IMG/VR virus record: IMGVR_UViG_3300030104_006634
Location: 1-45,982 of that record
From: a virus
Direction: 5' to 3' (one strand)
DNA: 45,982 bases
The notes below the pieces were generated by a model. That model was not told the DNA's origin. It made no database searches and was given only the letters and a program-made list of their open reading frames with translations. Made by a program: the position numbers and the translations under genes. Below, piece after piece: positions 1,935-45,982 of the stretch. Every line of letters starts with the position of its first letter. The first letter of the stretch is position 1.

Positions 1935-2288
1935 ATGCCTGTTAAACCAAAGGACCGTCTTCACCCTTTAGAACTTCATACCGGAATAAAAACCTTCAAG
2001 ATCAAGCTTCAGTCCTTAGAGAAGGATGAACTACACGGTTGTGTGGAAATGCACAAAGGATTGATTACAATCGATCCTAATCAAAGTATAGAGGATTACA
2101 AAGGCACTCTGCTACATGAAATCTGCCACGTTGGGTTTGATATTTATGGACTTGGTCACGACGATCAAATCCCTCAGATAACTAATGAATACTTAACCAC
2201 GATGACATCAAATATGATTCAACAGCTTGCTACTTTGAATCCTGAATTGTTTAGTTATTTATTAGGTGGTGCCCATCACAGGACTTGA
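1935..2288 (+). CDS. Small HExxH putative zinc metallopeptidase
   Basis: This is a 117-residue protein with the motif HEICH (H61, E62, H65) in a hydrophobic helix (GTLLHEICHVGFDIYGL), the zinc-binding signature of small metallopeptidases of SprT or ImmA/IrrE type. The C-terminal half is helical. It is clearly related to the 27047..27448 product: both share HEI.H followed by a helix and the ending LNPxLF. TAAATA at 1924-1929 lies 5 bases before the ATG. Its last 22 bases overlap the 3' end of tRNA-Thr on the other strand. Substrate unknown; catalytic activity is inferred from the motif only. Confidence 0.65.
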   Translation: MPVKPKDRLHPLELHTGIKTFKIKLQSLEKDELHGCVEMHKGLITIDPNQSIEDYKGTLLHEICHVGFDIYGLGHDDQIPQITNEYLTTMTSNMIQQLATLNPELFSYLLGGAHHRT

Positions 2289-2342
2289 ACCTGTAACCTA
2301 CGGTTTACAAAACCGTTGCTCTACCAATTGAGCTAGACGGGC
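2267..2342 (-). tRNA. tRNA-Thr (anticodon TGT)
   Basis: The minus strand folds as a standard 76-base tRNA with encoded CCA. Acceptor is GCCCGTC/GATGGGC, the D arm contains AGCTCAATTGGTAGAGC, the anticodon arm is ACGGT-TTTGTAA-ACCGT (anticodon TGT, Thr) and the T arm contains GGTTCAAGTCC. Its 3' end overlaps a rightward CDS by 22 bases. Confidence 0.95.
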
Positions 2343-2344
2343 AA

Positions 2345-2545
2345 TTAGTTGAAGTAGTTATCAAGCAATTCTAAAATGTCTTGCTGTTCAGCCATCTTCT
2401 TCATTTCAGACTCCACCGACTCAATCATGTCCGTGTGTTCTGCGACACCTACACTTGAATTGAGAATAACCTCAACGTTTGCGTGATGCTTTGCGATGTT
2501 GCCCTCAACGTGCAGGCGAACTGCCTTTAGTAGTGCTTCTCTCAT
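2345..2545 (-). CDS. Small conserved-looking phage protein (66 aa)
   Basis: The protein begins MREALLKAVRLHVEGNIAKH and is helical throughout, with an acidic C-terminus. GAGGAG stands about 9 bases before the ATG. The start resembles small uncharacterised proteins I remember from T4-like aquatic phages, but I cannot verify this. It lies between pstS (5 bases upstream) and tRNA-Thr. No function can be assigned. Confidence 0.7.
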   Translation of the reverse strand: MREALLKAVRLHVEGNIAKHHANVEVILNSSVGVAEHTDMIESVESEMKKMAEQQDILELLDNYFN

Positions 2546-2550
2546 AGTAA

Positions 2551-3420
2551 TTACTCCTCACTGTTGGGGACACTTAAAGGAATATAGCCTTTTTTAGATA
2601 GAATACTCTGGCCTTCAAGACCCTTGATCCATTTGAGATACTTTCCTATCTCCCCTTGAGGCTCGCCGTTAGTATACATGTAGAGTGGTCTTGATATAGG
2701 GTAAAGCCCTGATTGAACTGTCTCTAAGCTAGGGTAAACGGGGGACTCCCCTTCACCATAGGAAATTTTAACGATTTTCACCTCGTCTGTCTTGTATGCA
2801 AGGCCGCTGTAACCAATGGCACTCTTAGAACTTGCACAGAACTCTACAACATCTTTACTGCCGTTTAGGTTGTTGCATCGCTGCTTGAATCTCCCCAGCT
2901 TACCAAGGACTTTTTCACGGAAGCATTCGTAGGTACCGCTGTTATTCTGACGGCTACCAAGTTGTATCTTGTTGGCACCAGGAGCTTCTAAGCTAACGCC
3001 AAGCTGATCCCAATTTTCAATATCTCCACCCTCTCCAAAGATAGCCTTCAACTGGTTCATCGTCAGACTGTTAATGGGTGAGTCCTTGTGTACAAAGACA
3101 GCAATCCCATCGTATCCTACGATGTGCTGAACGGGAGTGACTCCATTCTTCTCTGCTTGCTTAAGTTCCTTATCTTTCAGTGGACGGCTACAGTTAGCAA
3201 TCTCACAATCATTTGCAAGAAGTGCTGCAACCCCAACACCAGACCCTCCACCTGAAACTGATACCGCTACATTTGGTTCAGCCTTGGTGTAGTGTTCAGC
3301 AAAGGATCCTGCCACCTCTAAGAGAGTATCAGATCCTACGTTCTCGATTTCAGTAAACGATTGACCACCACAAGAAAAGAGAGTGATCATAAAAAGAAAA
3401 GTTGTAAATAGTTTAATCAT
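2551..3420 (-). CDS. pstS: Phosphate-binding lipoprotein PstS
   Basis: A 289-residue periplasmic substrate-binding protein of the PstS family. I chose ATG 3420 because the frame upstream runs into tRNA-Lys. The N-terminus MIKLFTTFLFMITLFSCGG is a signal peptide with a lipobox Cys, so the mature protein should be lipid-anchored. The N-terminal domain has NVGSDTLLEV and SVSGGGSGVG, matching phosphate-contacting loops of PstS, and GSRQNNSGTYECF further on fits the second lobe. PstS feeds the high-affinity PstCAB transporter. Aquatic phages often carry pstS as an auxiliary gene used under phosphate starvation. No Pho box is obvious upstream. The family call is strong. Confidence 0.9.
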   Translation of the reverse strand: MIKLFTTFLFMITLFSCGGQSFTEIENVGSDTLLEVAGSFAEHYTKAEPNVAVSVSGGGSGVGVAALLANDCEIANCSRPLKDKELKQAEKNGVTPVQHIVGYDGIAVFVHKDSPINSLTMNQLKAIFGEGGDIENWDQLGVSLEAPGANKIQLGSRQNNSGTYECFREKVLGKLGRFKQRCNNLNGSKDVVEFCASSKSAIGYSGLAYKTDEVKIVKISYGEGESPVYPSLETVQSGLYPISRPLYMYTNGEPQGEIGKYLKWIKGLEGQSILSKKGYIPLSVPNSEE

Positions 3421-3442
3421 TGTAATAAGTTTTGTAAGTAAC

Positions 3443-3518
3443 TGGTACCCTCGCAAGGACTCGAACCTTGGACCAATCGGTTAAAAGCCGATTGCTCTAC
3501 CAACTGAGCTACGAGGGC
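3443..3518 (-). tRNA. tRNA-Lys (anticodon TTT)
   Basis: A standard 76-base minus-strand tRNA with encoded CCA. The acceptor GCCCTCG pairs with CGAGGGT, the anticodon arm is ATCGG-CTTTTAA-CCGAT (anticodon TTT, Lys) and the T arm contains GGTTCGAGTCC. It lies just upstream of pstS. Confidence 0.95.
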
Positions 3519-3604
3519 ATAAAATAAGCAGTTTGAATACATGCTTAGGTATCCTGTGATTGACGACCAGAGAGATCCAGAAGTCACGCAACAGTCCTCC
3601 TTAA
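3519..3604. other. Spacer between tRNAs, no gene seen
   Basis: These 86 bases separate tRNA-Lys from tRNA-Leu. I looked for a further tRNA or a small ORF and found neither: there is no T-loop-like sequence and no convincing start site. Confidence 0.5.
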
Positions 3605-3692
3605 TGGTAACAGTGGCGGGACTCGAACCCGCAAGACCGATATGGTCAACAGATTTTAAGTCTGTCGTGTATGCCAATTCCACCACACTGTC
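3605..3692 (-). tRNA. tRNA-Leu (anticodon TAA)
   Basis: An 88-base class II tRNA on the minus strand with a long variable arm and encoded CCA. The acceptor GACAGTG pairs with CACTGTT, the anticodon arm is ACAGA-CTTAAAA-TCTGT (anticodon TAA, Leu) and the T arm is GCGGG-TTCGAGT-CCCGC. Confidence 0.95.
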
Positions 3693-3693
3693 A

Positions 3694-3770
3694 TGGTAGG
3701 GTGACCAGGACTTGAACCTGGGACCTGAGGTATATAAGACCCCTGCTCTAACCAACTGAGCTATCACCCC
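3694..3770 (-). tRNA. tRNA-Ile (anticodon TAT)
   Basis: A 77-base minus-strand tRNA with encoded CCA, one base from tRNA-Leu. The acceptor is GGGGTGA/TCACCCT with a terminal G-T pair, and the anticodon arm is GGGGT-CTTATAT-ACCTC. T33 precedes anticodon TAT, which reads the Ile codon ATA. Bacteria usually read ATA with a CAU tRNA modified by TilS; a UAU anticodon would not need that modification. Confidence 0.88.
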
Positions 3771-32825: not shown

Positions 32826-33852
32826 AATCTTTTATAAGGTTTAATCCCTCCTCTAATCTCTCCTTCGGTATTGTGGAGCATTGCTCTTCAATATACTTAC
32901 CAATGATGTCTGCATCAATTACAGTCAAAGGCACATTAGGATCATAGCCCGACAATCTTTCGTTTAGAGTATCATCATAAACGGGTTGAAACTTTAGATC
33001 GACATAAGCCACTTTAAATTTATTAGCAATGTCGGCGCGGAGAAGAGAAGGTGGATCTTCTGAGAATTTATCAATAGTTACTCGCAGAAGAGTGAAGTAG
33101 TTAGGATCTGAGATCTCACCCTCCATTGCTTCAAGAGCATCGTAAGGAGCCTCGTAAAAGCGTGGTCCGAATCCCACTTTAAATTTATTAAGTGGACCCC
33201 AGCCGCTAGGAGTTTCCTCCAGAATTCCTACGTAATGCTCGTTATCAGCCTCCCCAAAGTTAGTAGACCAGGGAGTCCCTAAAATGGTTACGTGCTCGTC
33301 CTCTAGGTATTTATGAATGTGACCAAGAATGGTTCGACATTCAAAGTTAGCTAGCTTAAGGTCAGAATCAAAGCCACGGATGCCAAGGTGATCAGGGCAA
33401 TAGCTGAAATGGCCGAAAGCGATATAATTATCATCAGGTCCTCTACGTAGGTGCTCCTTAATCGTCTCTTCATTTTCATAGTGTGGTATTAGTAAGAATT
33501 TAAGATCAGTATCAATATGAGTTTGCTGGACAAGCCGCACTTTCGACCCTGGGTAGCAAAGTGTTTCCAGCGCAGTCAACCCGTCATCGTTTCTATTTTG
33601 CGAATCATGGTTTCCTCTGAGCACGTACATGAATTTCAAACCTGGGGTCAGAGCAAGTTTCTTGAACATATCATGTGTAGCTACGATTACCTCAGGTGAT
33701 GGCTTTCGATGATGATAAATGTCACCAAGGAAAACAACATGAGTTGGCTTGTATTCATTGACAAGCCTAATCGTAGATTCTATCTGGCTTTGGAGATATC
33801 CTTCACATTTAGTGTCGTAGTGAGTGTCTCCAATAATCAGGCATTTCTTCAC
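32800..33852 (-). CDS. gp47: gp47 / SbcD-Mre11-like nuclease
   Basis: A 350-residue metallophosphoesterase. CLIIGDTHYD (motif I), FLGDIYHHRKP (II), YVLRGNHDSQ (III), LIPHYEN, and FGHFSY and GHIHKY metal-binding His motifs are present, as in Mre11/SbcD. I start at GTG 33852: AAAGGAG lies 7 bases upstream and the codon overlaps the ThyX stop (GTGA); the frame could be opened ten codons earlier but only inside thyX. It cuts DNA in partnership with gp46. Confidence 0.93.
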   Translation of the reverse strand: MKKCLIIGDTHYDTKCEGYLQSQIESTIRLVNEYKPTHVVFLGDIYHHRKPSPEVIVATHDMFKKLALTPGLKFMYVLRGNHDSQNRNDDGLTALETLCYPGSKVRLVQQTHIDTDLKFLLIPHYENEETIKEHLRRGPDDNYIAFGHFSYCPDHLGIRGFDSDLKLANFECRTILGHIHKYLEDEHVTILGTPWSTNFGEADNEHYVGILEETPSGWGPLNKFKVGFGPRFYEAPYDALEAMEGEISDPNYFTLLRVTIDKFSEDPPSLLRADIANKFKVAYVDLKFQPVYDDTLNERLSGYDPNVPLTVIDADIIGKYIEEQCSTIPKERLEEGLNLIKDYADQEDHS

Positions 33853-34637
33853 AGATTCTCCTTTGTAATACCTAGCTTGCACAGATCATCTCTCATAAGC
33901 TCGTAAATTCCTTCAGCGAGCATTCTAATCTCATACTGAGCGTCTGGCTTTAGACGCTGGTGTAAGAACCAAATAATACTTTGGAGGCTAAGGGTCCAAT
34001 ACGCCTTAGTGTACATGCATTGAGGAAGGATGCCTCTTGCCTGCTCTTTAGCTACGCCATTCTTCACCATGCGATTATACATGTAAAGGGAATTAATGCA
34101 TAGCTGATCCATGTATTCGATGACCTCACCAGGATACATGTAACCCATAGTGTTTTCATCCATGGGGTTTTCATACTCACCAGAGGACTGCTTGTTCCCA
34201 TGTGGAGGATTAGACCTCAATTCCGCAGGAATGTAGTAATCATCCGAGGTTTGAGTGTATCTACCACTAACCTCATTCCAGGAGCATCCCTTGTCTATAT
34301 CATACAAGTGATCAAACTCCTCAATAAATACCTCCCTTCCGTCAGCCTCTACCGACCTAAACCCTGAACCAACCTGATATTTCATCAACTGCCTTGCCAC
34401 GAAAATAGGCAGCTTCACCTGAAATGTATAGTAGGAGTGACGGAAGGGAGATGTGTGCTCATGTGACCAAAGAAACTTTGTAAGTTTTTGGTCTTTCTCA
34501 TCAAACAAGCTTTTCTCATTATTATAAGAACAGCGGGCAGCATTAACTGTCTTCAAGGAGGAGTTAGCAACCATACGATCCACAAGGGATACACCGCTTT
34601 TCTTGTCTTGGAGAAAGTCTATAATTTTATCATCCAT
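33849..34637 (-). CDS. thyX: Flavin-dependent thymidylate synthase ThyX with insertion
   Basis: A 262-residue protein. VNAARCSYNN, LWSHEHTSPFRH (residues 56-67), a flavin region RQLMKYQVG (82-90) and SWNEVSGRYT (119-128) correspond to ThyX; a third segment is ARGILPQCMYTKAYWTL with a Trp-rich end. In normal ThyX the RHRxxS part and the NExSxRY part are contiguous. Here about 28 residues separate them. ThyX makes dTMP from dUMP using FAD, NADPH and methylene-tetrahydrofolate. It overlaps gp47 by 4 bases. A CTATAAT copy lies about 35 bases upstream, so its leader would be longer than in other genes. Confidence 0.88.
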   Translation of the reverse strand: MDDKIIDFLQDKKSGVSLVDRMVANSSLKTVNAARCSYNNEKSLFDEKDQKLTKFLWSHEHTSPFRHSYYTFQVKLPIFVARQLMKYQVGSGFRSVEADGREVFIEEFDHLYDIDKGCSWNEVSGRYTQTSDDYYIPAELRSNPPHGNKQSSGEYENPMDENTMGYMYPGEVIEYMDQLCINSLYMYNRMVKNGVAKEQARGILPQCMYTKAYWTLSLQSIIWFLHQRLKPDAQYEIRMLAEGIYELMRDDLCKLGITKENL

Positions 34638-34669
34638 ATAACAGGCTATTCAGGTAAATAGTATAGGAG

Positions 34670-34675
34670 TATTAT
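34670..34675. promoter_or_regulatory. Divergent promoter region between thyX and the basic protein
   Basis: On the plus strand TATTAT ends 5 bases before ATG 34681; on the minus strand the same bases read GCTATAAT, about 35 bases before the thyX start. It can thus serve both directions. Confidence 0.45.
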
Positions 34676-34680
34676 AGCTG

Positions 34681-35754
34681 ATGAGTAATCAATCATTGAA
34701 TGAAAAGGGTAAAATGCCAAAGAAGTTTTCCGTCAAAAGTGGTGACAAATCTGCGGCAGGAGGGCTGACAGATAAGGGTGTAAAGCGTTACAGAGCGGAG
34801 AACCCAGGGTCCAAGCTTAAGACTGCTGTAACTACTAAGCCTTCAAAACTCAAAAAGGGCAGTAAGTCTGCCAACCGTCGCAAATCTTTCTGCGCTCGTA
34901 TGGGTGGCATGAAAAAACGCCTAACCTCTGCCAAGACTGCTAGAGATCCTGATAGCCGTATCAACAAAGCTCTGCGTAAGTGGAATTGCTCAACTGATAT
35001 AAACTCCGATGCTTTGGACAGAATGAGTGAAATGATTGTGATGTCCATGTTAGATGAAGGAATTCTTGGATTTGGCATGGATACATCCACTGGTCGAAGC
35101 CGCACGCGCAGACAAGTTCTAAAAGCTAAGTCTGGTCGGGCCGGAGCTTTGGCAAGAATTGCTAAACGCAAGCGAATGAAAGGTGAAGACCCTAAACCCA
35201 TCCCAGGATCAATCCTTCCTAAAACCAAAAGCGGTCGCGGTCCCGGTGCGCGACGAGGTTCTCCAACATCTAAATCAACTTTACAGGGTAAAAGTTCCGA
35301 TAGACCATTAACGAAGGGTAATATATCACAACCTAAGGTTCCCGGTGAAGGTAGTAAGTATTATGACAAAGCAGGACACCAGGCTCACATCGACAGAGTC
35401 GAAGCACAACAAGCTAAAAGGAAGAAGACTAAGAAGACCGCAAACTCAACAGGTTCGAAAAAGAACAAGGATACTAAGACCTCAACAAAAACAGATTCGA
35501 ACGATGCGAATAGAGTTCAGAGACAAATGGCTGCACGAATAGCACAGCAAAGGAAGGGCAGGAAAGAGAAACTGGATAAGGATAGGGACCGATTAATCGG
35601 TCCTGCTACTGATTCGACTAAAATTATTAGAAATGCTAGATTAGCTTTAGCTGAGATGGTGGTCGAATGTTGGAAGACTCATAAAAAAGTTGGCACTAAA
35701 ATGAAAGGTGGTCGTATAGTTAATGACTGCGTGCCTAAATCTAAAAAGAAGTGA
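34681..35754 (+). CDS. Highly basic phage protein with DUF6321-like N-terminus
   Basis: A 357-residue protein with an extreme Lys/Arg/Ser/Gly composition. Residues ~14-105 are the most conserved-looking part (KSGDKSAAGGLTDKGVKRYR, then KGSKSANRRKSFCARMGGMK and SRINKALRKWNC), which I recall as the DUF6321 domain of aquatic phages. The remaining part is low-complexity, basic, and probably disordered, with a short helical cap around LALAEMVVECWKTH. Such composition suggests DNA or RNA binding: DNA condensation, packaging or a virion-internal protein. It stands alone on the plus strand between two leftward operons. Confidence 0.7.
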   Translation: MSNQSLNEKGKMPKKFSVKSGDKSAAGGLTDKGVKRYRAENPGSKLKTAVTTKPSKLKKGSKSANRRKSFCARMGGMKKRLTSAKTARDPDSRINKALRKWNCSTDINSDALDRMSEMIVMSMLDEGILGFGMDTSTGRSRTRRQVLKAKSGRAGALARIAKRKRMKGEDPKPIPGSILPKTKSGRGPGARRGSPTSKSTLQGKSSDRPLTKGNISQPKVPGEGSKYYDKAGHQAHIDRVEAQQAKRKKTKKTANSTGSKKNKDTKTSTKTDSNDANRVQRQMAARIAQQRKGRKEKLDKDRDRLIGPATDSTKIIRNARLALAEMVVECWKTHKKVGTKMKGGRIVNDCVPKSKKK

Positions 35755-35766
35755 TGCCTAGGGGTG

Positions 35767-36831
35767 TTAGAGTTCGTACTCTACACCGTTACCAAAGCTA
35801 GAACCAACTTCAACATCTACGCCAAGAGGAACCCTCAAGTGGATGTTGAAGTTTTCTTTTAAGTAGTGGTAGTTCTCAAGCTCATCACTAACAATTTCAA
35901 CAACCTTCCTGGTTTCTTCTTTAGGGGCTATAAGCTCAATCGAGTCGTGAACAGTTGCCACGACTTTGGCCTTCATACCCTTAAGCTTTTCAATAACGCC
36001 AAGCATACCACAAAGTAGAATGTCGCTAGCAGCAGATTGAATTGTGAAGTTCAAACCTTGTCGGAAAGCCTCACGACGAACACCCTTAAAAGGTGATCGT
36101 ACATTAGGAAGATGGCGATATCGACCGAAGATGGTCTTAGCGTAACCAAACTGCTTGATATAGTCATCAATCGTATTCATATATCTACCCACACCTGGAA
36201 AAGCCGCTAGCCAACTATTGATAATTTCCTCAGCGCGATCCTCAGGAATGTTGCGTTTTGATGCAAGAGTATAAGCAGTGCCACCATATACTGTCAGGAA
36301 GCTAACCTCCTTTGCAATCTGCCTTTCAAGTTTACTCACATCCTTGGGATCTTTATTAAACGTTAAACCAGCAGAATAGCTGTGCAGATCTACGCCAGAT
36401 TTGAAGGCGTGGATCATATTTTCTTCATTAGCAACATGAGCAAGAACTCTTAGCTCCATCGCTTTCATGTCAATAGTGATGAAGTCGTGACCCTTAGGTG
36501 CCACCACGTAATCACGGATGTTTACATCTAGCGACTCACGAGGAAGCGTGTGAAAAGAAACACCAATCTTGTCAGTCTTCTTTCTACCAACGTTAGCACC
36601 TGAATTTGAGATGCGCCCTGTAACCGTACCATCGATGTTATACTTCACATACATCCTACTGTTGCCAGTGTTCTGTAGTGCAGTGCGAGCACCTTCGATA
36701 TAGACAGAGTGAAGCTTGGTCAGCTTCTTATACTCCGAGAAACGATCAAAGAACTTCTTTGCAGCTTTCAACTTATCATTAGACATGTTGTTCAAGACTG
36801 CCTTCGCAATGCTTACTTCTTCGTTATTCAA
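35767..36831 (-). CDS. polA: Family A DNA polymerase, palm/fingers piece
   Basis: A 354-residue C-terminal polymerase piece. It has TGRISN (71-76), motif A ITIDMKAMELRVLAH (D121 metal ligand), motif B RQIAKEVSFLTVYGG (170-184, with Phe178 at the position equal to E. coli F762) and motif C VVATVHDSIEL (metal Asp). The start is a TTG at 36831 overlapping the stop of the upstream piece by 8 bases (TTGAATAA); no better start is in frame because a stop lies just upstream. The 5'-3' nuclease domain is absent, as is usual in phage enzymes. The thumb is in the next frame. Confidence 0.88.
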   Translation of the reverse strand: MNNEEVSIAKAVLNNMSNDKLKAAKKFFDRFSEYKKLTKLHSVYIEGARTALQNTGNSRMYVKYNIDGTVTGRISNSGANVGRKKTDKIGVSFHTLPRESLDVNIRDYVVAPKGHDFITIDMKAMELRVLAHVANEENMIHAFKSGVDLHSYSAGLTFNKDPKDVSKLERQIAKEVSFLTVYGGTAYTLASKRNIPEDRAEEIINSWLAAFPGVGRYMNTIDDYIKQFGYAKTIFGRYRHLPNVRSPFKGVRREAFRQGLNFTIQSAASDILLCGMLGVIEKLKGMKAKVVATVHDSIELIAPKEETRKVVEIVSDELENYHYLKENFNIHLRVPLGVDVEVGSSFGNGVEYEL

Positions 36832-37348
36832 CCTTCAAGCCTCTCGCTGTAAACTCCTCTTCGACCATGGCTTTCACCTTGGTCAGCGTCTCCTCGTTGG
36901 TAGAAGGAGCGCCCTTTTTAGTGAACTCAAAAGGATACAACCCAAGACCAAAGTCGTCAACCTGAATCCACTCACCCTCATCATTCTTCTCGAATGAATA
37001 GATAATCTTTACAAGTTGATTAGTGGAATTAAGGTTAGCATCCTCCTCCAAACCAGCAGCCTCTCGTAAAGCGATGTCTGCCAGTCTGAGCTTGTCTTGA
37101 AGTTGCTCATCCAATTCGTTGAGCTTATCCTCATCGATAAGCAATCCCTCAAATTCCATATCACGGAAAGCAACTGTCAAAGGTGCAATCAGCTTTTCAT
37201 ACAGGTGTTCCAGCTTCTTCTGACGGACCTCTTCAAGTAGTTTTACATATACCTTTGCGGTGGCGTAGGTATCCTTTGCATTACCCTCAACGCATTGAAT
37301 CAATGGAATGTTCTTCCAATCGAACTTCTTACCTTCAACTGTAAGCAT
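36824..37348 (-). CDS. Family A DNA polymerase, exonuclease-end/thumb piece
   Basis: A 174-residue middle piece. Its start, IPLIQCVEGNAKDTYATAKV, includes the third exonuclease motif (Asp26), so the 3'-5' exonuclease domain is divided between this gene and the previous one; the Tyr normally four residues before that Asp is not present. The rest (EKLIAPLTVAFRDMEFEGL, LNSTNQLVKIIY, GAPSTNEETL) is the thumb of a PolI enzyme. Start ATG 37348 shares a base with the upstream stop (TAATG). Its stop overlaps the TTG start of the palm piece. Confidence 0.85.
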   Translation of the reverse strand: MLTVEGKKFDWKNIPLIQCVEGNAKDTYATAKVYVKLLEEVRQKKLEHLYEKLIAPLTVAFRDMEFEGLLIDEDKLNELDEQLQDKLRLADIALREAAGLEEDANLNSTNQLVKIIYSFEKNDEGEWIQVDDFGLGLYPFEFTKKGAPSTNEETLTKVKAMVEEEFTARGLKVE

Positions 37349-38382
37349 TAGAACTTTTCTTCTGGGAAGTAGTAGTAGACAAGATCGGCCAAAGATTTTG
37401 GAACATCCTCTTTGTAGAGGTGTTGCAAAAGCTTCGTGTCATACACATTATACACATCTTCGACGCCATAACGCTTCAAGAACTTAAGGTCGAACCCGGC
37501 ATTCTGCAATATCTTTCTGTTCTTTTTATTTGCCATAACCTGACAGACGAATCGCATGAAAGCACCCTTTACCTTGTAACCAAGTTTTGCTTCTTTGTGA
37601 TCAATAGGCAATACTAAAGTCCTACCGAGATCTCCAGTGTCACGATTAACGAGCGTCATGGAGACTGTGTGAATTGTATCCTCAAGGAAATTAAGACCAG
37701 TGGTCTCAATATCTACAGCAAGATCCATCTCGGTATCAATAAACTCGCCGCTCACCTCATTCAACTCACCAATACTCATGGCAAGGGTATGGTCTACCTG
37801 AGCGTCTGTAGCCTTCCCTAAAAGCTCATTATTTAATGCGTTCTCCAGGTCAGTCCGAAAAAGATAGGCGTTCTTAGGCTCTGCTACGACCTGGAAAGGG
37901 TGAATAATGGGCACTACCTGGAACTTTGTCCCTGCCTCTGTGATAAGATCATCAACCTTGCCGCGAATCTTACTTTCCTCTCTCGCCTTACCATATAGGA
38001 GAGTGGTAGCGACCTTACCGCAAGCAAATACAAGTCGAGGCTTGTAGTGATCAATGGTGTCATGCAAGTGAGTCTTACAGGACTTCTTAATGCCAGTGCT
38101 AAGATTTTCAGAGGTAATATTAGGACACTTCACAGCAGTCGTGTAGCCAACCTCCCAATCGTGTGAGAACCTAGCAAGCTCACGCTGAATTACATTATAT
38201 TCTTGTGGTCGGAAAGCGGTGAACTCACCTTCAAACATCTTCGCTGAATCTGATATGAAGAGAATATCTACTGGGGTGTCTTTATACTCATAGTCTAAGA
38301 TCGTATGCGTCGGCAGATTCATCTTCAGCGCAGGGCAACCCTCACACTTGGAGTTGACACCCTGGAAACTTAGTTGTGGCAT
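37348..38382 (-). CDS. Uracil-DNA-glycosylase-like domain fused to 3'-5' exonuclease start (polymerase N-terminus)
   Basis: A 344-residue protein. Residues 1-185 resemble family 4 UDGs: C13-x2-C16 and C86-x15-C102 fit the Fe-S ligands, and IIHPFQVV (160-166) the HP motif, but the GExPG active-site loop is degenerate (ISDSAKMFEGE). Residues ~219-344 are the exonuclease start: DLAVDIETTGLN (D224, E226), ILQNAGFDLKFL (exo II) and LADLVYYYFPEE. It ends inside that domain, so the polymerase continues in the next gene. Phage SPO1 polymerase also has a UDG-type N-terminal domain. ACCTATCAT ends 6 bases before the ATG. Confidence 0.85.
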   Translation of the reverse strand: MPQLSFQGVNSKCEGCPALKMNLPTHTILDYEYKDTPVDILFISDSAKMFEGEFTAFRPQEYNVIQRELARFSHDWEVGYTTAVKCPNITSENLSTGIKKSCKTHLHDTIDHYKPRLVFACGKVATTLLYGKAREESKIRGKVDDLITEAGTKFQVVPIIHPFQVVAEPKNAYLFRTDLENALNNELLGKATDAQVDHTLAMSIGELNEVSGEFIDTEMDLAVDIETTGLNFLEDTIHTVSMTLVNRDTGDLGRTLVLPIDHKEAKLGYKVKGAFMRFVCQVMANKKNRKILQNAGFDLKFLKRYGVEDVYNVYDTKLLQHLYKEDVPKSLADLVYYYFPEEKF

Positions 38383-38386
38383 AAGA

Positions 38387-38395
38387 CTATGATAG
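38387..38395. promoter_or_regulatory. Palindromic CTATGATAG motif between polymerase and gp55 genes
   Basis: The 17-base gap between divergent start codons contains CTATGATAG. On the minus strand TATCAT ends 6 bases before the polymerase ATG; on the plus strand TATGAT ends 6 bases before the GTG of the sigma gene. One element may be the promoter for both genes. Confidence 0.55.
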
Positions 38396-38399
38396 GTGA

Positions 38400-38753
38400 G
38401 TGAGTTATTATATTGACAACAAAAGGTTTGAGGAGTTGATCCAAGAATTCAAACTTAACATTCGAACTAACGAAGATGAATTATTCAACATGTTCGACAC
38501 ATTAATTAATAGACTCATGCTATCTTTCAAGTTTAATGTTGATCATGAAGAGGCTAAACAAGAGTGCTTCCTACTTATACTCAAAGTGCTCAAGAACTTC
38601 AACAGAGAATCTGGGCAAGCCTTTAACTACTTTACCACAGTAATACTGAATAATCTACGCCTCTTATACTCCAAGAACAAAAAGTATAATGAAAAACTTG
38701 AATCCTATAGGAACCATAAAATGGGAGTTCCTAAGGATCCAAGTTCTATTTAG
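38400..38753 (+). CDS. gp55: gp55-like late sigma factor
   Basis: A 117-residue protein starting at GTG 38400. HEEAKQECFLLILKVLKNF, GQAFNYFTTVILNNLRLLY and SKNKKYNEKLESY correspond to sigma region 2 in T4 gp55-type late sigma factors, which bind host RNA polymerase and read TATAAATA promoters. It is shorter than T4 gp55 (185 residues), lacking the C-terminal extension that contacts the sliding clamp; DNA gp45 is not visible in the window. TAAATA boxes in the window agree with its presence. Convergent to the next gene with a 4-base overlap. Confidence 0.78.
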   Translation: MSYYIDNKRFEELIQEFKLNIRTNEDELFNMFDTLINRLMLSFKFNVDHEEAKQECFLLILKVLKNFNRESGQAFNYFTTVILNNLRLLYSKNKKYNEKLESYRNHKMGVPKDPSSI

Positions 38754-39121
38754 ATTCCAATCTCTGCGCCAACCGAGCCGTTGTAGGATACGACTCTTGG
38801 GAAGGACTTATGAATCACAACCAGCATGGGTAACTGATCATAACGTGAGAGACAGGATGTTGATATTGTCTCCCTGTGAGATTTAATCGAGGACTTAATT
38901 ACGTCCAGTGCGTTAGGCACATTAAAAATGTCTACAACATTTAGATCCGTAGTGCCATCTAACGGAAGCCTATCATTAAAATGGTTGCAAACCTTATCCC
39001 ATGTATTAGTGATAAGGTAGTATGAGTTTTTCTTACTCTCAATATTTGAGGTCACAATGGAACTCAAATGCTTCGAATTGTAAACCTTACTTGTCTTGAA
39101 GTTGTTCTTCTGTTTGCTCAT
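38750..39121 (-). CDS. Unidentified phage protein (123 aa)
   Basis: I start at ATG 39121 (MSKQKNNFKTSKVYNSKHLS) because the longer frame contains a Lys/Arg-rich stretch that is shadow of the upstream gene. The protein has a hydrophilic N-terminus and a more globular C-terminal half (NVVDIFNVPNALDVI, LPMLVVIHKSFPRVV). It overlaps the upstream gene by 35 bases and converges on the sigma gene. No family recognised. Confidence 0.55.
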   Translation of the reverse strand: MSKQKNNFKTSKVYNSKHLSSIVTSNIESKKNSYYLITNTWDKVCNHFNDRLPLDGTTDLNVVDIFNVPNALDVIKSSIKSHRETISTSCLSRYDQLPMLVVIHKSFPRVVSYNGSVGAEIGI

Positions 39122-39422
39122 CTTTTTTCGGCCATTCAGAAATTTCTGCTTGAGTTTCCTGTTCTTGCGAACCTTCTTCAGCTTGCGATGCCTTGTGAGC
39201 TTCAACAAGAGATTGAATTTGTTCGGTCATCGCGTTACACCCAGCAAAGAAGATTTGCTTAAAAAAGGTGTCATCCTCAAGCTCTGGTGGTTTGAGCTTA
39301 CAAAAGTTCTTGAAGCCCTCGGCCTCTTCTTTGGAAAACTTGATTTGAATTTTCATACGTCCTCTACTTCGTTCAACTAATTTAAATTTGGTATCCTTAA
39401 ACGATAATGATACATTGTCCAT
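39087..39422 (-). CDS. Small helical phage protein (111 aa)
   Basis: I start at ATG 39422 (MDNVSLSFKDTKFKLVERSR): CTATAAT ends 6 bases before it, and the hydrophobic stretch upstream is shadow. KIQIKFSKEEAEGFKNFCK and DDTFFKQIFFAGC are a pattern I have seen in small T4-like phage proteins of unknown function. The C-terminus is Gln/Glu-rich. Divergent from the resolvase gene. Confidence 0.65.
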   Translation of the reverse strand: MDNVSLSFKDTKFKLVERSRGRMKIQIKFSKEEAEGFKNFCKLKPPELEDDTFFKQIFFAGCNAMTEQIQSLVEAHKASQAEEGSQEQETQAEISEWPKKDEQTEEQLQDK

Positions 39423-39428
39423 GCAGCT

Positions 39429-39434
39429 ATTATA
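39429..39434 (-). promoter_or_regulatory. Short-leader promoter motif (TATAAT, minus strand)
   Basis: AGACTATAATAGCTGC precedes ATG 39422 with the box ending 6 bases before it. On the plus strand the same bases read CTATTATAG, 17 bases before the resolvase ATG. Confidence 0.55.
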
Positions 39435-39450
39435 GTCTAGAGGTATTGAA

Positions 39451-39972
39451 ATGAAAGACGACTTTGATATATCGCCCTTAAGAAAAAAGAAGAAAGTAAA
39501 CTCAAGAGCTAAGGGTAACAGATTTGAAAACAAGATTGCAAAAACTCTGAATGAGAGATTCGATACAAAAGAGTTTTGTCGCACCCCTGGTTCTGGGGCC
39601 TTTGCTACCACTCACAAATTACCAGAATACTTAAAAGTATATGGAGACTTAATAACTCCTGAAAAGTTTAGATTCGTTATTGAATGCAAGAAAGGATATA
39701 ATGATGAACAAGTAAGTGATTTATTAAATCCTAAATCAACAATTTCGAAAATGATAGCTCAGTCTCATCGAGATTCCAAGAAATCTTCAAGAAAGTTTTT
39801 ACTGCTTATTGGTCAGAATCGAAAGGAGCCAATAGCTATAACCAACGAGTTAAGGCTTCCAGTTAAAGGTCCAAGCTTTGTAGGTTCTGTCGGTGATGTT
39901 CAAGTTGCAATGTTTAGACTTAGTGATCTAGTCAACATTGATGATTCTTACTTTTTCCTTGATGATGCCTAA
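39451..39972 (+). CDS. PD-(D/E)XK nuclease, Holliday-junction-resolvase-like
   Basis: A 173-residue protein: KGNRFENKIAKTLNERF (Glu), CRTPGSGAFATT, YGDLITPEKF (Asp) and FRFVIECKKGYND (E-x-K) are the four catalytic positions of the restriction-endonuclease fold used by archaeal Hjc and phage resolvases. A role in branch resolution before packaging, like T4 gp49, is likely. GAGG lies about 8 bases before the ATG. Its last 45 bases overlap the convergent 859-residue gene. Confidence 0.82.
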   Translation: MKDDFDISPLRKKKKVNSRAKGNRFENKIAKTLNERFDTKEFCRTPGSGAFATTHKLPEYLKVYGDLITPEKFRFVIECKKGYNDEQVSDLLNPKSTISKMIAQSHRDSKKSSRKFLLLIGQNRKEPIAITNELRLPVKGPSFVGSVGDVQVAMFRLSDLVNIDDSYFFLDDA

Positions 39973-42507
39973 GGCTTCTGTGAGCTTAGACAAAACATCG
40001 ATAACCGTTGCAGACTCTTTCTTACTTTCCTCTCCTCCAGATAACTGGTTATTTGCATCTTTGGAACTCTTTCGAGTTGATGCGTTTCGAAGAGAGGTAG
40101 CAGACCTGTATGCAATCCATTTACCACCTTTAAGAGTGACAGATATCGTTCTGTTCGGATCATCGGATCTCTTGAAGGTTAATGATCCTTGGCTAGGATC
40201 AAACTCCCATTTGCCATCATTTGCTTGAATTGAATCAAGCACAGATAGCATCTCACCATTTTGTGTTGATATGTAAGATGCAAGTTCATCAAGAGCATCA
40301 ACTTGAAATACTGTGCCGTTTCGAGCAGAGCCACCAGCCTGATTTAAAACAGCTAAAGCATACATAGCCGCAACCCTAGAGGTCTTGTTGGGCCTGCCAG
40401 TTCTACTATCTTGCCCTTGAGCTTTTAAGGTAAGATTGTTAAACAGAGTCATTTTAAATAATTTCTCTTTCACTTTTTTTACAAAATTCTTATCAGCATC
40501 CTTCCCTTCTGCGAACTTTTTTATATCTTCTTCAAGTGTGCGGTAGTCATCCTCATTAAGCTCCTTGAAAGTTCTATTCTTTTGTAAATTCTTAAGCAGA
40601 GCGGTAGCATACATTTTTACAGAGTTTTCTGTAATGTTTCCTATCTTTACTTTGGCACTCAGGCTTTCTACAGCATCCGAAATCTTATCGGCTACTTCTT
40701 GCACACCCCTAACATCTGACGGTTTGATATTACCAGCCGGATCAAACTGGTTGAAAAAGTTGGAAGCTCTAGGATCAGAAGCTGTCGGATCGGATAAGGA
40801 TTTAGAAACTGAGTTACGAGTTGTCTCTCCTTTCTTTGCTGAACTAAGGCTTAAAAGTGTTTTCAAGCTAATCTCTGATACGAAAAGGCTTTGTCCTGGC
40901 TTAACAACACCGGCTTTAATGTACCGTTCTAGCAGATCAGGTTTGTTCTTAAATATATCCTCCACAGTCGCTTCAACAACACTATCCTCAGATAATCTAG
41001 ATCTGGTTTCACCATCAACCTCAAACTCTTCAGATTTTCTAAGAGCCTTCAACGCCTTATCCCTACTTGCCCAGCATTCGAGCACATCTTGCTTTTCACC
41101 AGAACCTGTTTGTTCAGCGACTTGAACAGCTAAGAGAGGTTGTCTAACTTTAGCAGTGGTAACTGCCGTACTAAACATTGCTAGAATGAATTTTTCTGGG
41201 ACCTCAGTGATCCTAGAAAGCATTTCTATTTGAGCTTGTTCTTCTTCACTGACTACTGCACCCTGAGCTTTTTCTAACCAACTCTCGCGTTCTTCGCTTA
41301 ATTTTCTCATCTGTGCATAAACATTTTTTATGCTATCAACTGCGAGTGATCTACGTTCTTCTAATTCCTCTGAATCACCTTGCCCTTGCCCACGACCCCT
41401 GCCAATATTCAAAACATCTACAACTGCAATTTTTGCAACTTCCCCCATCTCCCCTCTAATAGCACTTTCCGCTCCGACACTACCGAGCACAGTGGCTTTT
41501 CTGGCAGACTGAGCTTCCATACTACAACCTGCCATACTCATTAAACCTTTTAAGGATCTAGCAGAAGCTTCATTGTTGAATACTCTACCACTCATTCCTC
41601 TTCCGTTTTCCCCTAGTTCGGTGTATACTGTAACAGCTTTAAGACCACCACCTTCAGTCACTTTAAATCTACCACATGCCTCTTCTTTTGATTCCTCATC
41701 ACCATCTGCTGCGTCTGCCAACACATTCAGCAGTCTTGATACTTCAATAGAAGCTATGGGGTCTTGCTCCGAACTTCCCACAACCCAATCACCAGACTCA
41801 CCTTCATACCGTAATGTAGGAGCATTACTAACTAGTTGCCTTTCTACATTCCCGATTTGATTACCCGTTAAGAATTGTGTGTGATTGCCGCACTCAGCCC
41901 AGAAAGAAGTATTAGTATCATAAGTTTTAATATCATTCCTAACGGCTTCTAAATAATCTAAATCTATTTGTCCTTCATTGCAAAGTAATTCATTTATTTT
42001 CTGCTCAAAGGTAGCTACATTATCAATGATCTTTGCAACGTCCTCAAAGTTATTCACAGCCATGCTAGACTTTAGGATCTGCTCTCTTCTCTTGTCTCGA
42101 AGAATAGCTTCGGCTTCTTCTGGAGATCTTTCTGTTTTCTGAGTTATTTTTTCTTTTCTCTTTTCCTCATCTGGTGTTAATTCCGCTCCAACTAACATGG
42201 AAATTATTTGCTTGAATTGTTTGGGGTCTGATCCTGGTATTATTTTTTGATTCTGAGCATCCCATGAAGCTGTTGGATATCCAATCTTAAGACTTCCATT
42301 AGCAGTCAGACTAAGATTCTTAGGACCAGAATTGAATGTTTGTATCTGGGCGACCGTGGAGTTACCCCTTACCTGACCTTGTGTCAAAGCATCAGCGACC
42401 ATTTGTGAAGCCTGATCAACTCTAGGGTCAGACTCCTGCTCCAACAATGTAAGTTTACGGCTGTGCTTTCTACTAAAGCTTTCCAAAAGTTCATTGAAAA
42501 AATCCAT
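39928..42507 (-). CDS. Large phage protein of unknown function (859 aa)
   Basis: No family recognised. It starts MDFFNELLESFSRKHSRKLT and is highly charged and helical in several blocks (AEAILRDKRREQILK, DSEELEERRSLAVDSI), with Gly-rich turns (NIGRGRGQGQGD) and small repeated Ser/Lys patches near the C-terminus. No signal peptide or membrane helices are apparent, and no protease or nuclease motif is clear. Its position next to the tail tube and sheath and its size suggest a virion protein (packaged internal protein or tail component), which is inference. It starts after an imperfect terminator hairpin. Its 3' end overlaps the resolvase gene antisense by 45 bases. Confidence 0.75.
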   Translation of the reverse strand: MDFFNELLESFSRKHSRKLTLLEQESDPRVDQASQMVADALTQGQVRGNSTVAQIQTFNSGPKNLSLTANGSLKIGYPTASWDAQNQKIIPGSDPKQFKQIISMLVGAELTPDEEKRKEKITQKTERSPEEAEAILRDKRREQILKSSMAVNNFEDVAKIIDNVATFEQKINELLCNEGQIDLDYLEAVRNDIKTYDTNTSFWAECGNHTQFLTGNQIGNVERQLVSNAPTLRYEGESGDWVVGSSEQDPIASIEVSRLLNVLADAADGDEESKEEACGRFKVTEGGGLKAVTVYTELGENGRGMSGRVFNNEASARSLKGLMSMAGCSMEAQSARKATVLGSVGAESAIRGEMGEVAKIAVVDVLNIGRGRGQGQGDSEELEERRSLAVDSIKNVYAQMRKLSEERESWLEKAQGAVVSEEEQAQIEMLSRITEVPEKFILAMFSTAVTTAKVRQPLLAVQVAEQTGSGEKQDVLECWASRDKALKALRKSEEFEVDGETRSRLSEDSVVEATVEDIFKNKPDLLERYIKAGVVKPGQSLFVSEISLKTLLSLSSAKKGETTRNSVSKSLSDPTASDPRASNFFNQFDPAGNIKPSDVRGVQEVADKISDAVESLSAKVKIGNITENSVKMYATALLKNLQKNRTFKELNEDDYRTLEEDIKKFAEGKDADKNFVKKVKEKLFKMTLFNNLTLKAQGQDSRTGRPNKTSRVAAMYALAVLNQAGGSARNGTVFQVDALDELASYISTQNGEMLSVLDSIQANDGKWEFDPSQGSLTFKRSDDPNRTISVTLKGGKWIAYRSATSLRNASTRKSSKDANNQLSGGEESKKESATVIDVLSKLTEALGIIKEKVRIINVD

Positions 42508-42525
42508 AACTTATAATAGACAAAT

Positions 42526-42554
42526 AGCCCTCTCTCTTATTTAGAGAGAAGGCT
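42526..42554 (-). terminator. Probable terminator after the tail-tube gene
   Basis: On the minus strand AGCCTTCTCTCT, loop AAATA and AGAGAGAGGGCT pair over 12 positions with one mismatch, followed by ATTTG. The T-run is weak, so termination may be partial. It lies between the tube stop and the 859-residue gene. Confidence 0.6.
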
Positions 42555-42575
42555 ACCTGAATTAGATCTAAGAGG

Positions 42576-43163
42576 TTAGTTGATCTTGTCGTAGTCCACG
42601 AAGTCGTAGCGGAAGGTCACTTCAACTGTGGAGAAATCATTCGTGGCGTAGTTCTTCTCCGAGTATCTAACACCTGTGGGATACACGCCATACATTTCGA
42701 TGAAAGCATGTGGCTCGTTAGTATTATCAAGCTCAAGAATAGTAAGTTTGTTAGCCTTGAATGATCTGTTTCCAGGTCCACCGGGAGCAGCCAGTTTAGT
42801 CATGTCACCCGAAATCGGATCATATATTGTCTTAAACCAATTCCAAAGAGCCGGAGTGGTCTGAGTTAATAACTGATTATCAAAGGTGATCGTGACAGCC
42901 TCAGGTGTGAATTTACCAGGGTAGTACATCTTATCATTAAGACGATCAACAACAATGTCATCAACCGCACCACCAACCGGACTCACTTGCTTCGCAGCAG
43001 CAGTTAGAACTTGTTGGGTACCGATGAACTCAGGCGGAACACCAAAGAACTTCACTTCAAATTGATACGACCTTACAGCGTCGAGCTTCGTAGAGATCTT
43101 AGGAAGACTCTTCCCAGGCTCAAAGTTCGCTCTGTAATCGTTCTTTAAAAAACTATCTACCAT
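42576..43163 (-). CDS. gp19: Tail tube protein (gp19-like)
   Basis: A 195-residue protein. RSYQFEVKFFGVPPEFIG, DRLNDKMYYPGKFTPEAVTI and TVEVTFRYDFVDYDKI fit the beta-barrel rings of T4 gp19 and other contractile-tail tube proteins; NLALWNWFK-type segment LWNWFKTIYDP is also typical. It assembles hexameric rings inside the sheath. The gene follows the sheath gene in the standard order, 8 bases apart. Confidence 0.9.
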   Translation of the reverse strand: MVDSFLKNDYRANFEPGKSLPKISTKLDAVRSYQFEVKFFGVPPEFIGTQQVLTAAAKQVSPVGGAVDDIVVDRLNDKMYYPGKFTPEAVTITFDNQLLTQTTPALWNWFKTIYDPISGDMTKLAAPGGPGNRSFKANKLTILELDNTNEPHAFIEMYGVYPTGVRYSEKNYATNDFSTVEVTFRYDFVDYDKIN

Positions 43164-43171
43164 GATTATTA

Positions 43172-45208
43172 CTAGTTAATGGTTGCCGATTGGCTGGTGA
43201 GGTTGACCTCGAAGACAATCGATTCAGCAGCCTTTGTGGGCTTAATTGTCACCGAGCACCAAAGCTCATTTCTATCAACTCTTGCGGGAGTGTTCGTTGT
43301 TGAGTCACACTTAACAGAACCTTCAGTGATGGCTCTTCTAGCCAGAAGATCGTCGAGGAACGGGTTGATCGATTCCTCGACCAGTTCCCATGTGAATTGA
43401 TCGTTAGGCTCAAACTGGAAGGGCTTACCAAGCTCAAGCAGAACCTTTCGAGTGTAGATCATCAATCTGCGGACGTTGACTCGGTCGAGAGCAGTCGGTG
43501 CTCTTTGCGTGGTCTTCTGACCAAAGATTGTAATACCCGTGGTCGGATCCTTAGTGATCGGGTTGATCGAGTTAGAGTAAAGGGCATCTCTATCGCCTTG
43601 GTTAAGAGCGATCTCAACGTCCGTAGGCTTAGTTAAACGCCCTCTTCGGAAGCCAGCCGGAGCAAACCAAGGCTCCGAGACAGCATCTGTGAAGACACAC
43701 TGCCTAGCTGCAAAGATCGAAGGATCGTAGTACTCTTCTGCGCCTGCGAAAGCGTTAAAGATCTGAACCCATGGCCAGTAAACGGCGGCATAAGAGGAGT
43801 TTAGAGCGGTTGCTCTTATTGCAGCGTCTTGACCGTTGATCCATTGAATTGCATCCTGAACCTCATCCAATCCAAATGGCGGAGCAACTAAGGCTAAGAA
43901 GTTTTTGGAAGACTCAGCCAAAGTAATAAAGGCATTTTGAACAGCATCGTCCGTAACACCAGGGACAATGCCAATCGATATGTTTAAGGAATCATCATCA
44001 AGAGCGTAGATTCCAGTCTTATTAACAGCTTTCCCAATTAAGGAAGTTGCATTCGTAGCACCACTATCGCCTCCACCAAGGTTATAGGTACCTCCAATCA
44101 ATTTTAAGAATCGAGGAGTGGCGTCAGGCAAGTTGTCCTGGTTGAAACCACCGATAAATCCAGCTTGGGCAGCTTGTTCACCAAATAGACTAGGAGCAAT
44201 GTAGTCTGCTTCACTCTTTTCAAGCTCTGCAAACACATACTCAGACTGGTTACTATCCTCATTGATATTTAATAAGAATTCAACGGAGTTGGCGCTAGAA
44301 GCGGCAAGTTCTATTGCATTGTAAGATTCAACTTGAGACCCATCGTTGTTAACCACCAGTTGATCTCTGGTTGAGAGGTTATTAACTTCAATGGAAACAC
44401 CTCTAGTAGAACCATCCCTGAGGCTGCTCAAGTTATAGCCAGCACCAGGGTAAATCGAGTATAAGTTTACAGCAACATCGGAAGAGCTATAACCACTTAC
44501 TGTTAAGTTGGTACCGCTAATACCATCTGTAAGGTAGCCATCAGCAGCGACACCATTTATGTTTAGACCGGAGAATCCTAAACCTTCTAGAACATCACCG
44601 TCATCAGCGTTGGCTGAAACTTGTAAACTTGCACCCGATCCCGCAAACTTAGAAGCGAGGAAAACAGAGTTTCCTTCCGCAAAGGCAAAGACATCTTGAG
44701 AACCTAAGACGCTAGAATTAAACGCTTGTTGGAAGATCTTAACTCGCTCTATAGCGGAAGTATCGCCAACGGTATCCACGGAGCTAACTAGAGTGACTAT
44801 ACCCTCAGCCGACTGAGTGCCATCGTGGCTTTTTGTTTGGTAAGAAATTGAGGAAGGGTTGATGCTTGGAACGTAACCACTAACTAAAACAGCCGGACAT
44901 GCGCCGACCGTAACAGCAGCGGAAGCGTAAGAAGAAACAGAAGCGGTATCAATACCTCTAACAAAGTATAGTTGATTGGTGGCTTCTAATACTTCAAGAG
45001 CGCCTTCAAGCCCTTGGCCCAAGAGTCCTGTGTCTGGGTTACCAAACTTTCTAATGAGGTTCTCTTGACTCGTAATAAGAGTAGGCTTATTGATCGGACC
45101 TTTATTAGCGAAGCCGACTATGCCTACAACGCTTGAGTTGATATTTGGAGTGAAAATCGAAATATCATTTTCAAGAACTACAACGGATGGACTGGTTGGA
45201 ATTGCCAT
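43172..45208 (-). CDS. gp18: Tail sheath protein (gp18-like)
   Basis: A 678-residue protein. The N-terminus PSVVVLENDISIFTPNINSS and VVGIVGFANKGPINKPTLIT, and the C-terminal INVRRLMIYTRKVLLELGKP-like region (DRVNVRRLMIYTRKVLLEL), QFTWELVEESINPFL and SVTIKPTKAAESIVFEVNL are the signature of contractile-tail sheaths. T4 gp18 is 659 residues. A long Ser/Asn/Gly-rich insert between about residues 110 and 360 should be the variable surface domain. It is the major tail component that contracts on infection. Confidence 0.95.
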   Translation of the reverse strand: MAIPTSPSVVVLENDISIFTPNINSSVVGIVGFANKGPINKPTLITSQENLIRKFGNPDTGLLGQGLEGALEVLEATNQLYFVRGIDTASVSSYASAAVTVGACPAVLVSGYVPSINPSSISYQTKSHDGTQSAEGIVTLVSSVDTVGDTSAIERVKIFQQAFNSSVLGSQDVFAFAEGNSVFLASKFAGSGASLQVSANADDGDVLEGLGFSGLNINGVAADGYLTDGISGTNLTVSGYSSSDVAVNLYSIYPGAGYNLSSLRDGSTRGVSIEVNNLSTRDQLVVNNDGSQVESYNAIELAASSANSVEFLLNINEDSNQSEYVFAELEKSEADYIAPSLFGEQAAQAGFIGGFNQDNLPDATPRFLKLIGGTYNLGGGDSGATNATSLIGKAVNKTGIYALDDDSLNISIGIVPGVTDDAVQNAFITLAESSKNFLALVAPPFGLDEVQDAIQWINGQDAAIRATALNSSYAAVYWPWVQIFNAFAGAEEYYDPSIFAARQCVFTDAVSEPWFAPAGFRRGRLTKPTDVEIALNQGDRDALYSNSINPITKDPTTGITIFGQKTTQRAPTALDRVNVRRLMIYTRKVLLELGKPFQFEPNDQFTWELVEESINPFLDDLLARRAITEGSVKCDSTTNTPARVDRNELWCSVTIKPTKAAESIVFEVNLTSQSATIN

Positions 45209-45210
45209 GA

Positions 45211-45465
45211 TTAAGTACTCTTACGGATGGTTTTTTTAGTCTTAAGGTTAGTATGTTGGACAGGCGCCACTGGCTCAGGAGCCGGATCTGCGATATTGAT
45301 TATTTTTACTAATCTGCGATGAACTAGGTTCTCCGCGATCTTACTACTCCATTGTTGTGGAACTTGAAGCCTATCCTGAGGAGCCAAGAAAAAAGTTTTA
45401 GTACCATCCGGCGTTCCGAAGGGTATGTTCAAACCTTGCATACTCGTGTTTTTGACAATTTTCAT
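45211..45465 (-). CDS. Small putative structural protein upstream of sheath (84 aa)
   Basis: The protein has KNTSMQGLNIPFGTPDGTKT, FFLAPQDRLQVPQQW and LVHRRLVKIINIADP, short beta-strand segments, then a Pro/Thr/Lys-rich tail. This pattern (strand, FLAP, VP, LV.RR) recurs in small proteins that precede sheath genes in T4-like phages. AGGAG lies 8 bases before the ATG and TAAATA 15 bases before it. 2 bases separate it from the sheath gene, so it is in the late tail operon. Role unknown. Confidence 0.7.
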   Translation of the reverse strand: MKIVKNTSMQGLNIPFGTPDGTKTFFLAPQDRLQVPQQWSSKIAENLVHRRLVKIINIADPAPEPVAPVQHTNLKTKKTIRKST

Positions 45466-45480
45466 ATAAAGCTCCTACTA

Positions 45481-45486
45481 TATTTA
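45481..45486 (-). promoter_or_regulatory. T4-type late promoter box before the tail genes
   Basis: AGTAAATATAGTAGGAGC on the minus strand holds TAAATA, 15 bases before the ATG at 45465, with AGGAG between. It probably drives the tail operon (small protein, sheath, tube). Confidence 0.5.
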
Positions 45487-45514
45487 CTATTTTTGGGATG
45501 GAAAGTTGATTAAT

Positions 45515-45982
45515 TTACTGCCCTTGTAATGATAAGTTAGTAATAGTAAGGGTATTGCCTTCTGCGATATCGGTATCAGTTCCTATATCCCACCAAGCAT
45601 AAATTTCTTTACCTGCGGTATACGAGAAAGCCGAACCTACCGCTCCTGCCTCCACTAGTGCCACATACCTAGCATCACTAAAGGCCCCAGAAAATTGAAA
45701 AGCGTTATTGGCCGTTTGTAAAACTGCTCGCGCAGCACTGGCACTTAATTGCGAGGCGCTTGAAACATCAAAGTTTGCTTGATCTCCTGCTGCATCTCTT
45801 AGAACCACAAGACCTGAGGTTCCTCCAAGATTACTCGATGGTAATGAAGAAACAACTGCTCCACTAAGACTAGCCTCACCAGTAGAACTAGTGTCGGCAG
45901 TAAGTGAAGATGCAGTATTATCTAACAGAACAACTCTAAAAGTAGCATCCACTGCACCTGAGCAGAAGAACTCTTCAAACAT
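45515..45982 (-). CDS. Putative virion protein, possibly extends beyond window
   Basis: The open frame covers 155 residues from an ATG exactly at the right edge, so a true start further upstream cannot be excluded. It is rich in Ala, Ser, Thr, Gly and Val with few charged residues (TASSLTADTSSTGEASLSG) and contains ARYVALVEAGAVGSAFSYTA and YAWWDIGTDTDIAEGNTLTI, a beta-rich look typical of decoration or fibre-associated proteins. It belongs to the tail/virion block. No family recognised. Confidence 0.6.
   Translation of the reverse strand: MFEEFFCSGAVDATFRVVLLDNTASSLTADTSSTGEASLSGAVVSSLPSSNLGGTSGLVVLRDAAGDQANFDVSSASQLSASAARAVLQTANNAFQFSGAFSDARYVALVEAGAVGSAFSYTAGKEIYAWWDIGTDTDIAEGNTLTITNLSLQGQ

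Follow-up and report, generated by a model that had tools for sequence, protein, structure and literature searches.

The textbook family A DNA polymerases, among them Klenow, Taq and T7, are single-chain enzymes. Do the three consecutive minus-strand genes that carry the polymerase domains in an IMG/VR virus record (IMGVR_UViG_3300030104_006634, positions 1 to 45,982, hereafter "the window") represent a broken gene, a gene read by recoding, or a polymerase truly made in three parts? ORF calls re-found the three frames of the initial annotation, here named A, B and C, with C starting at TTG and the genes meeting at a TAATG and an TTGAATAA overlap (Table 1), and their combined length, estimated at about 870 residues, was counted as 872 aa. 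The sequence runs ..GAA AAG TTC TAATG CTT ACA.. across junction 1 and ..GTTGAATAAC.. across junction 2, the latter containing TTGAATAA at 36831-36824; A and C share a frame in the window, and B is offset. We consider it very probable that this layout reflects an ancient fission, fixed in a viral clade, which left three translationally coupled polypeptides that reassemble as one replicative polymerase. An ancestral single-gene family A UDG-exonuclease-polymerase would have been cut into three before a large phage clade diversified, and its members would have retained the split since, with A, B and C each translated as its own protein.

Table 1. Positions of the three genes, their junctions and their catalytic residues in the window
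Feature	Position	Strand	Details
Gene A (UDG + exo I/II)	37348..38382	-	ORF, 344 aa, ATG start
Gene B (C-terminal exonuclease helix with exo III Asp D26 + thumb)	36824..37348	-	ORF, 174 aa, ATG start
Gene C (palm + fingers; motifs A, B, C)	35767..36831	-	ORF, 354 aa, TTG start
Junction 1, TAATG stop/start overlap of A/B	37346..37350	-	Equal geometry in 67/94 loci
Junction 2, TTGAATAA, C start overlapping B stop	36824..36831	-	In-frame ATG/GTG/TTG for C in 94/94 loci
GAGG Shine-Dalgarno-like site	36840..36843	-	8 nt before C start; AGA-GGC of B R169-G170
Exo I D224-x-E226 of A	37705..37713	-	D and E in 92/92
Exo II D298 of A	37489..37491	-	D in 94/94
Exo III D26 of B	37271..37273	-	D in 94/94
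Motif A D121 of C	36469..36471	-	94/94
Motif B R170, K174, F178, Y182 of C	36286..36324	-	Each 94/94
Motif C H295-D296 of C	35944..35949	-	94/94

Conservation of the split among related viruses

Relatives were gathered by scans with single proteins and by alignments (80 kept of the 218 listed in one scan), which gave 94 distinct loci having all three parts, from IMG/VR and a Prochlorococcus single-cell genome; most are uncultivated contigs, and loci that come from related metagenomes are only partly independent. The three-ORF layout, which the initial annotation had proposed to look for in related phages, was found in all of these: A, B and C are separate genes in every locus and fused in 0 of 94, their order and synteny are kept throughout, and the palm genes range down to ~47% identity. 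Neither an intact gene nor an intermediate was found in any clade member, and the only fused forms among the scan matches were distant bacterial and MAG polymerases at ~30% identity. A quick maximum-likelihood tree, in which the outgroup rows are long branches and the exact root is unsure, separated the split forms as one clade from 12 unsplit polymerases (SH-aLRT 100). A search of known phages with B (tblastn) returned a single match, Pseudomonas phage Almagne. The viruses concerned form a large, uncultivated group infecting bacteria, apparently a marine one, and cyanobacterial hosts are hinted at for part of the clade by a relative that sits on a 130,604-base contig of the Prochlorococcus single-cell genome and is also present as IMG/VR virus record L283.

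Division of the catalytic sites and proposed assembly

Pfam and PHROG domains, together with the catalytic motifs, agree with the proposal of a UDG-exonuclease-polymerase split in three. Gene A matches UDG (PF03167, 2.4e-7) and DNA_pol_A_exo1 (3.9e-11), the latter over positions 22-128 of the 173 in the profile, with the profile end absent, and it contains exo I (DIE) and exo II (NAGFD). Gene B matches the start of DNA_pol_A below the cut-off (0.0029) and DNA polymerase PHROG 17 at 2.8e-11, whereas C matches DNA_pol_A (PF00476) at 1e-71 with motifs A, B and C intact. The placement of exo motif III in the second gene likewise held, as a PDB profile match puts B D26 at Klenow residue 501, a number derived arithmetically from the 605-residue Klenow chain of that match, which we take to span residues 324-928. 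All four exonuclease carboxylates are thus present, on two polypeptides: D224, E226 and D298 in A, and D26 in B. Wherever the residue is present, the exo I D/E, exo II D, exo III D, motif A D/E, motif B R/K/F/Y and motif C H-D are invariant.

At its N-terminus, A carries a UDG-superfamily domain, with the PF03167 match, family-4 UDG fold matches and four conserved Cys; an AF2 model of A (pLDDT 82) matched both family-4 UDGs and family A polymerases. Residues 44-48 of A (window 38239-38253) read SDSAK, beside the four Cys as in Fe-S family-4 enzymes. Because SDSAK stands in place of the GEAPG motif that family 4 UDGs carry there, the UDG-like domain may be inactive as a glycosylase. In the palm, motif A of C (window 36448-36471) is DMKAMELR compared to the usual DYSQ-ELR, and DYA(A/G)MELR in most other split relatives; the Gln is replaced by Ala or Gly in 94 of 94 split loci, and the Ser usually by Lys or Ala.

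The positions of the cuts were compared with unsplit UDG-exo-polymerases from phages SPO1 (gp31), PaBG (gp205), Thermus phage phiLo, Lysinibacillus phage LysYB1 and Almagne, which share domain order and catalytic motifs with the split forms but are encoded by one gene rather than three (802-926 aa in the compact ones, 1175 in phiLo, PDB 9qhs). The SPO1 polymerase gene has an intron, and a further distant unsplit UDG-exo-polymerase, 1527 aa long with an intein-like insert, was seen on a viral contig (L189:5671-10251). Single-gene enzymes of this type have been described in SPO1-like and Lupandier phages (PMC7412058). Junction 1 falls between exo II and exo III with no residue lost or gained, as the exo II and exo III Asp are 72 residues apart in the split forms, against 67-83 in five compact unsplit polymerases. 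Junction 2 falls where the thumb meets the palm, and there split forms have ~35 more residues than the compact unsplit ones (54-59 vs 22-23); phiLo was left out of both length comparisons, its alignment at the junctions (136 and 71 residues between anchors) looking unreliable. The extra residues form a C-terminal tail of B and an N-terminal extension of C, which suggests that these may act as docking elements. An interruption by an intron or intein was considered and rejected, as the three genes overlap here, a search at the gathering threshold found no group I intron in the window, L103 or L178, and junction 1 offers no room for an intein.

Since the exonuclease is divided between A and B, it follows from the anatomy that a working proofreading domain would need to be assembled from pieces, as the initial annotation had argued, with recoding as its other option. 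Building on the observed layout and its conservation, the separate starts, purifying selection and catalytic residues, we infer that A (UDG + exo I/II), B (exo III + thumb) and C (palm + fingers) would assemble non-covalently into a replicative polymerase in which the 3'-5' exonuclease site becomes complete only where A meets B. AlphaFold2 predicted a poor fold for B alone (pLDDT 75, pTM 0.40), which would fit a protein needing partners but proves nothing; a Foldseek search with this isolated model gave only noise and no structural match, as expected from its low pTM. How strongly the assembled enzyme would proofread is uncertain, because the Tyr that precedes the exo III Asp by four residues (YxxxD), present in 6 of 6 aligned unsplit relatives, is Gly in 94 of 94 split forms, and proofreading may be weak.

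Two other readings of the divided exonuclease were weighed, both improbable. In the first, A would join and leave a B-C core, so that the enzyme alternates between a plain polymerase and a form able to proofread and sense uracil; we give this only about one chance in ten, but if true, the fission would be kept for regulation and not merely tolerated. Slightly less likely still is that C alone is the working polymerase, with A and B having been turned to other tasks, for example sensing uracil or binding DNA. The exo III Tyr-to-Gly change and the separation of A from B in some genomes would be in keeping with such a loss of partnership, whereas in every locus both A and B retain their exonuclease carboxylates, a pattern that would make sense only if these meet in one site. 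In addition, B contains the thumb, on which DNA binding by family A enzymes depends, and the three genes remain syntenic and ordered. We retain reassembly of all three polypeptides as the preferred explanation.

Separate translation and retained function

Separate translation of the three genes was evaluated against programmed ribosomal frameshifting (-1 at junction 1, +1 at junction 2), which would yield a full-length polymerase with the short products as by-products. This possibility, raised in the initial annotation, is in line with the common frame of A and C, with the absence of missing or extra residues at junction 1, and with fixed commonest frame relations, A to B being +2 in 67 of the 68 adjacent loci and B to C +1 in 85 of all 94. 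The +2 relation corresponds to a stop/start overlap in which B starts 2 nt past the first base of the A stop (67 of 94 loci). However, these relations are not universal: one locus (L057/L185) has TAATATG at junction 1 and an A to B relation of +1, B to C is +2 in 9 of 94 loci, and L195 and others also differ, while in L030, a further truncated locus, a new ATG restores C after a frame change. No classical X-XXY-YYZ slippery heptamer was seen at junction 1 by eye.

Starts are kept despite these changes, switching only among ATG, GTG and TTG: B begins with ATG in 91 loci and GTG in 3, and C with GTG in 56, ATG in 20 and TTG in 18. Ahead of C, B R169 is encoded by AGA in 35 of 39 loci, compared to 21.6% of all Arg codons in these genes and never >38% at other conserved Arg columns, and AGA with the following GG creates GAGG, a Shine-Dalgarno core. 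This bias argues for a codon-biased, selected Shine-Dalgarno before C.

Other genes also stand between A and B, with at least 100 nt separating the two in 26 of 94 loci. In many loci these gaps hold opposite-strand genes for lipoprotein-like or basic proteins, and elsewhere a same-strand, 91-aa membrane-like ORF or, in L103, a 205-aa HNH homing endonuclease (HNH_3, 4.9e-10). Along the tree, loci switch between having and lacking an insertion at least 12 times, and the A-B junction is a hot spot for insertion of unrelated genes, mostly on the opposite strand. Gap genes including a lipoprotein-like 'SCSTIKHA..GG' type and basic proteins were seen in L239, L244, L250, L251, L257, L259, L261, L262, L270, L274, L283, L296 and others. 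Because frames change while starts stay, genes intervene and C has a Shine-Dalgarno, recoding by frameshifting is very unlikely. Under separate translation, B would start by termination-reinitiation at TAATG, or independently where genes intervene, and C from an ATG, GTG or TTG overlapping the end of B with a Shine-Dalgarno ahead.

Two last alternatives have next to no probability. Sequencing or assembly error breaking one continuous gene, suggested by a single metagenome contig with two compensating frame changes, is excluded by the equal layout of some 94 loci from many samples and the Prochlorococcus single-cell genome, with conserved junction geometry and genes inserted at junction 1. A decaying pseudogene in a virus that uses another polymerase, decay often being marked by split genes, conflicts with invariant catalytic residues, with median dN/dS within 0.02-0.04 (A 0.037, B 0.031, C 0.022), values that point to strong purifying selection on all three genes, and with six related records of 91-131 kb, none certified complete, that have one family A palm gene each and lack genes for family B polymerase and Pol III alpha.

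Origin, known split enzymes and genomic setting

Divided replication enzymes have precedents in phages. The split gene 43 of T4-like Aeromonas phages 25 and 44RR is likewise a divided replicative polymerase linked to homing endonucleases, and gp43A and gp43B of phage 25 co-purify and have polymerase activity, but this enzyme belongs to family B and has two parts (PMC2988022). The PolA of OM43 phages MEP401 and MEP402 is also a family A enzyme in separate ORFs in most of its group; however, it consists of two ORFs that flank a small one, the exonuclease domain and N-terminal polymerase part remain together, and its authors suspected an intron (PMC10580990). The T4 gp39/gp60 topoisomerase and Aeh1 NrdA (mobA/mobE) exemplify fission by free-standing HNH endonucleases followed by reassembly to a working enzyme, NrdA split by mobE being still functional (PMC2988022), although these are other enzymes, each split in few phages and not across a whole deep clade. 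Split phage polymerases were known before, and the literature searched, which did not cover subscription papers or outside preprints, contained several (MEP401, MIJ3, T4-like gp43 and jumbo-phage Pol III). It described no family A polymerase encoded by three genes, and hence none in which the exonuclease is divided and the split is fixed throughout a deep clade.

More loosely, free-standing homing endonucleases may have made the first cut. Endonuclease genes occur at the split site in two relatives, the L103 gene described above and an HNH-like ORF after A in L178 (HNH PHROG 374, 3.4e-8), both at junction 1, and no such trace was seen at junction 2. By analogy, these HNH genes suggest, without proving, a homing-endonuclease origin of the first cut; they may equally have entered an existing junction after the split.

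The existence of a three-gene version across a deep clade of viruses, with 218 relatives in a single scan, suggests that the family A fold can act as a heterotrimer in nature. Cuts through the exonuclease domain and the thumb-palm border represent natural cut points for split-polymerase engineering, and three small genes make both the reassembly of split replication enzymes and the question of neutral versus useful splitting testable. Surveys of polA and gene callers will miss or fragment such polymerases.

The window encodes contractile tail genes (sheath, tube) along with replication and repair genes, including a UvsX-like recombinase, a DnaB-like helicase, a gp32-like SSB, SbcC/SbcD, RNR and a RusA-like resolvase. 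Judging from this gene content, the virus resembles T4 in general character, except that its polymerase belongs to family A. It has no close isolate, the aligned part of its tail sheath being at most ~36% identical to known phages. In a nucleotide search of positions 33000-45982 against known phages, the only close match was a short stretch at the end of a neighbouring DUF6321 gene (35665-35740, plus strand), 84-92% identical to cyanophages S-TIM4 and P-RSM4. Beside the tail tube and sheath lies a gene for an 859-aa protein (39928-42507, minus strand) with no PHROG or significant Pfam match. Adjoining A, a divergent 117-aa ORF (38400-38753, plus strand) with a sub-threshold match to sigma-70 region 2 (E 0.0014) is perhaps a small phage sigma factor. 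Four tRNAs were found at 2267-3770, where tRNA-Lys is overlapped by a gene resembling the PstS phosphate-transporter subunit (2551-3456, minus strand; PHROG 5385).
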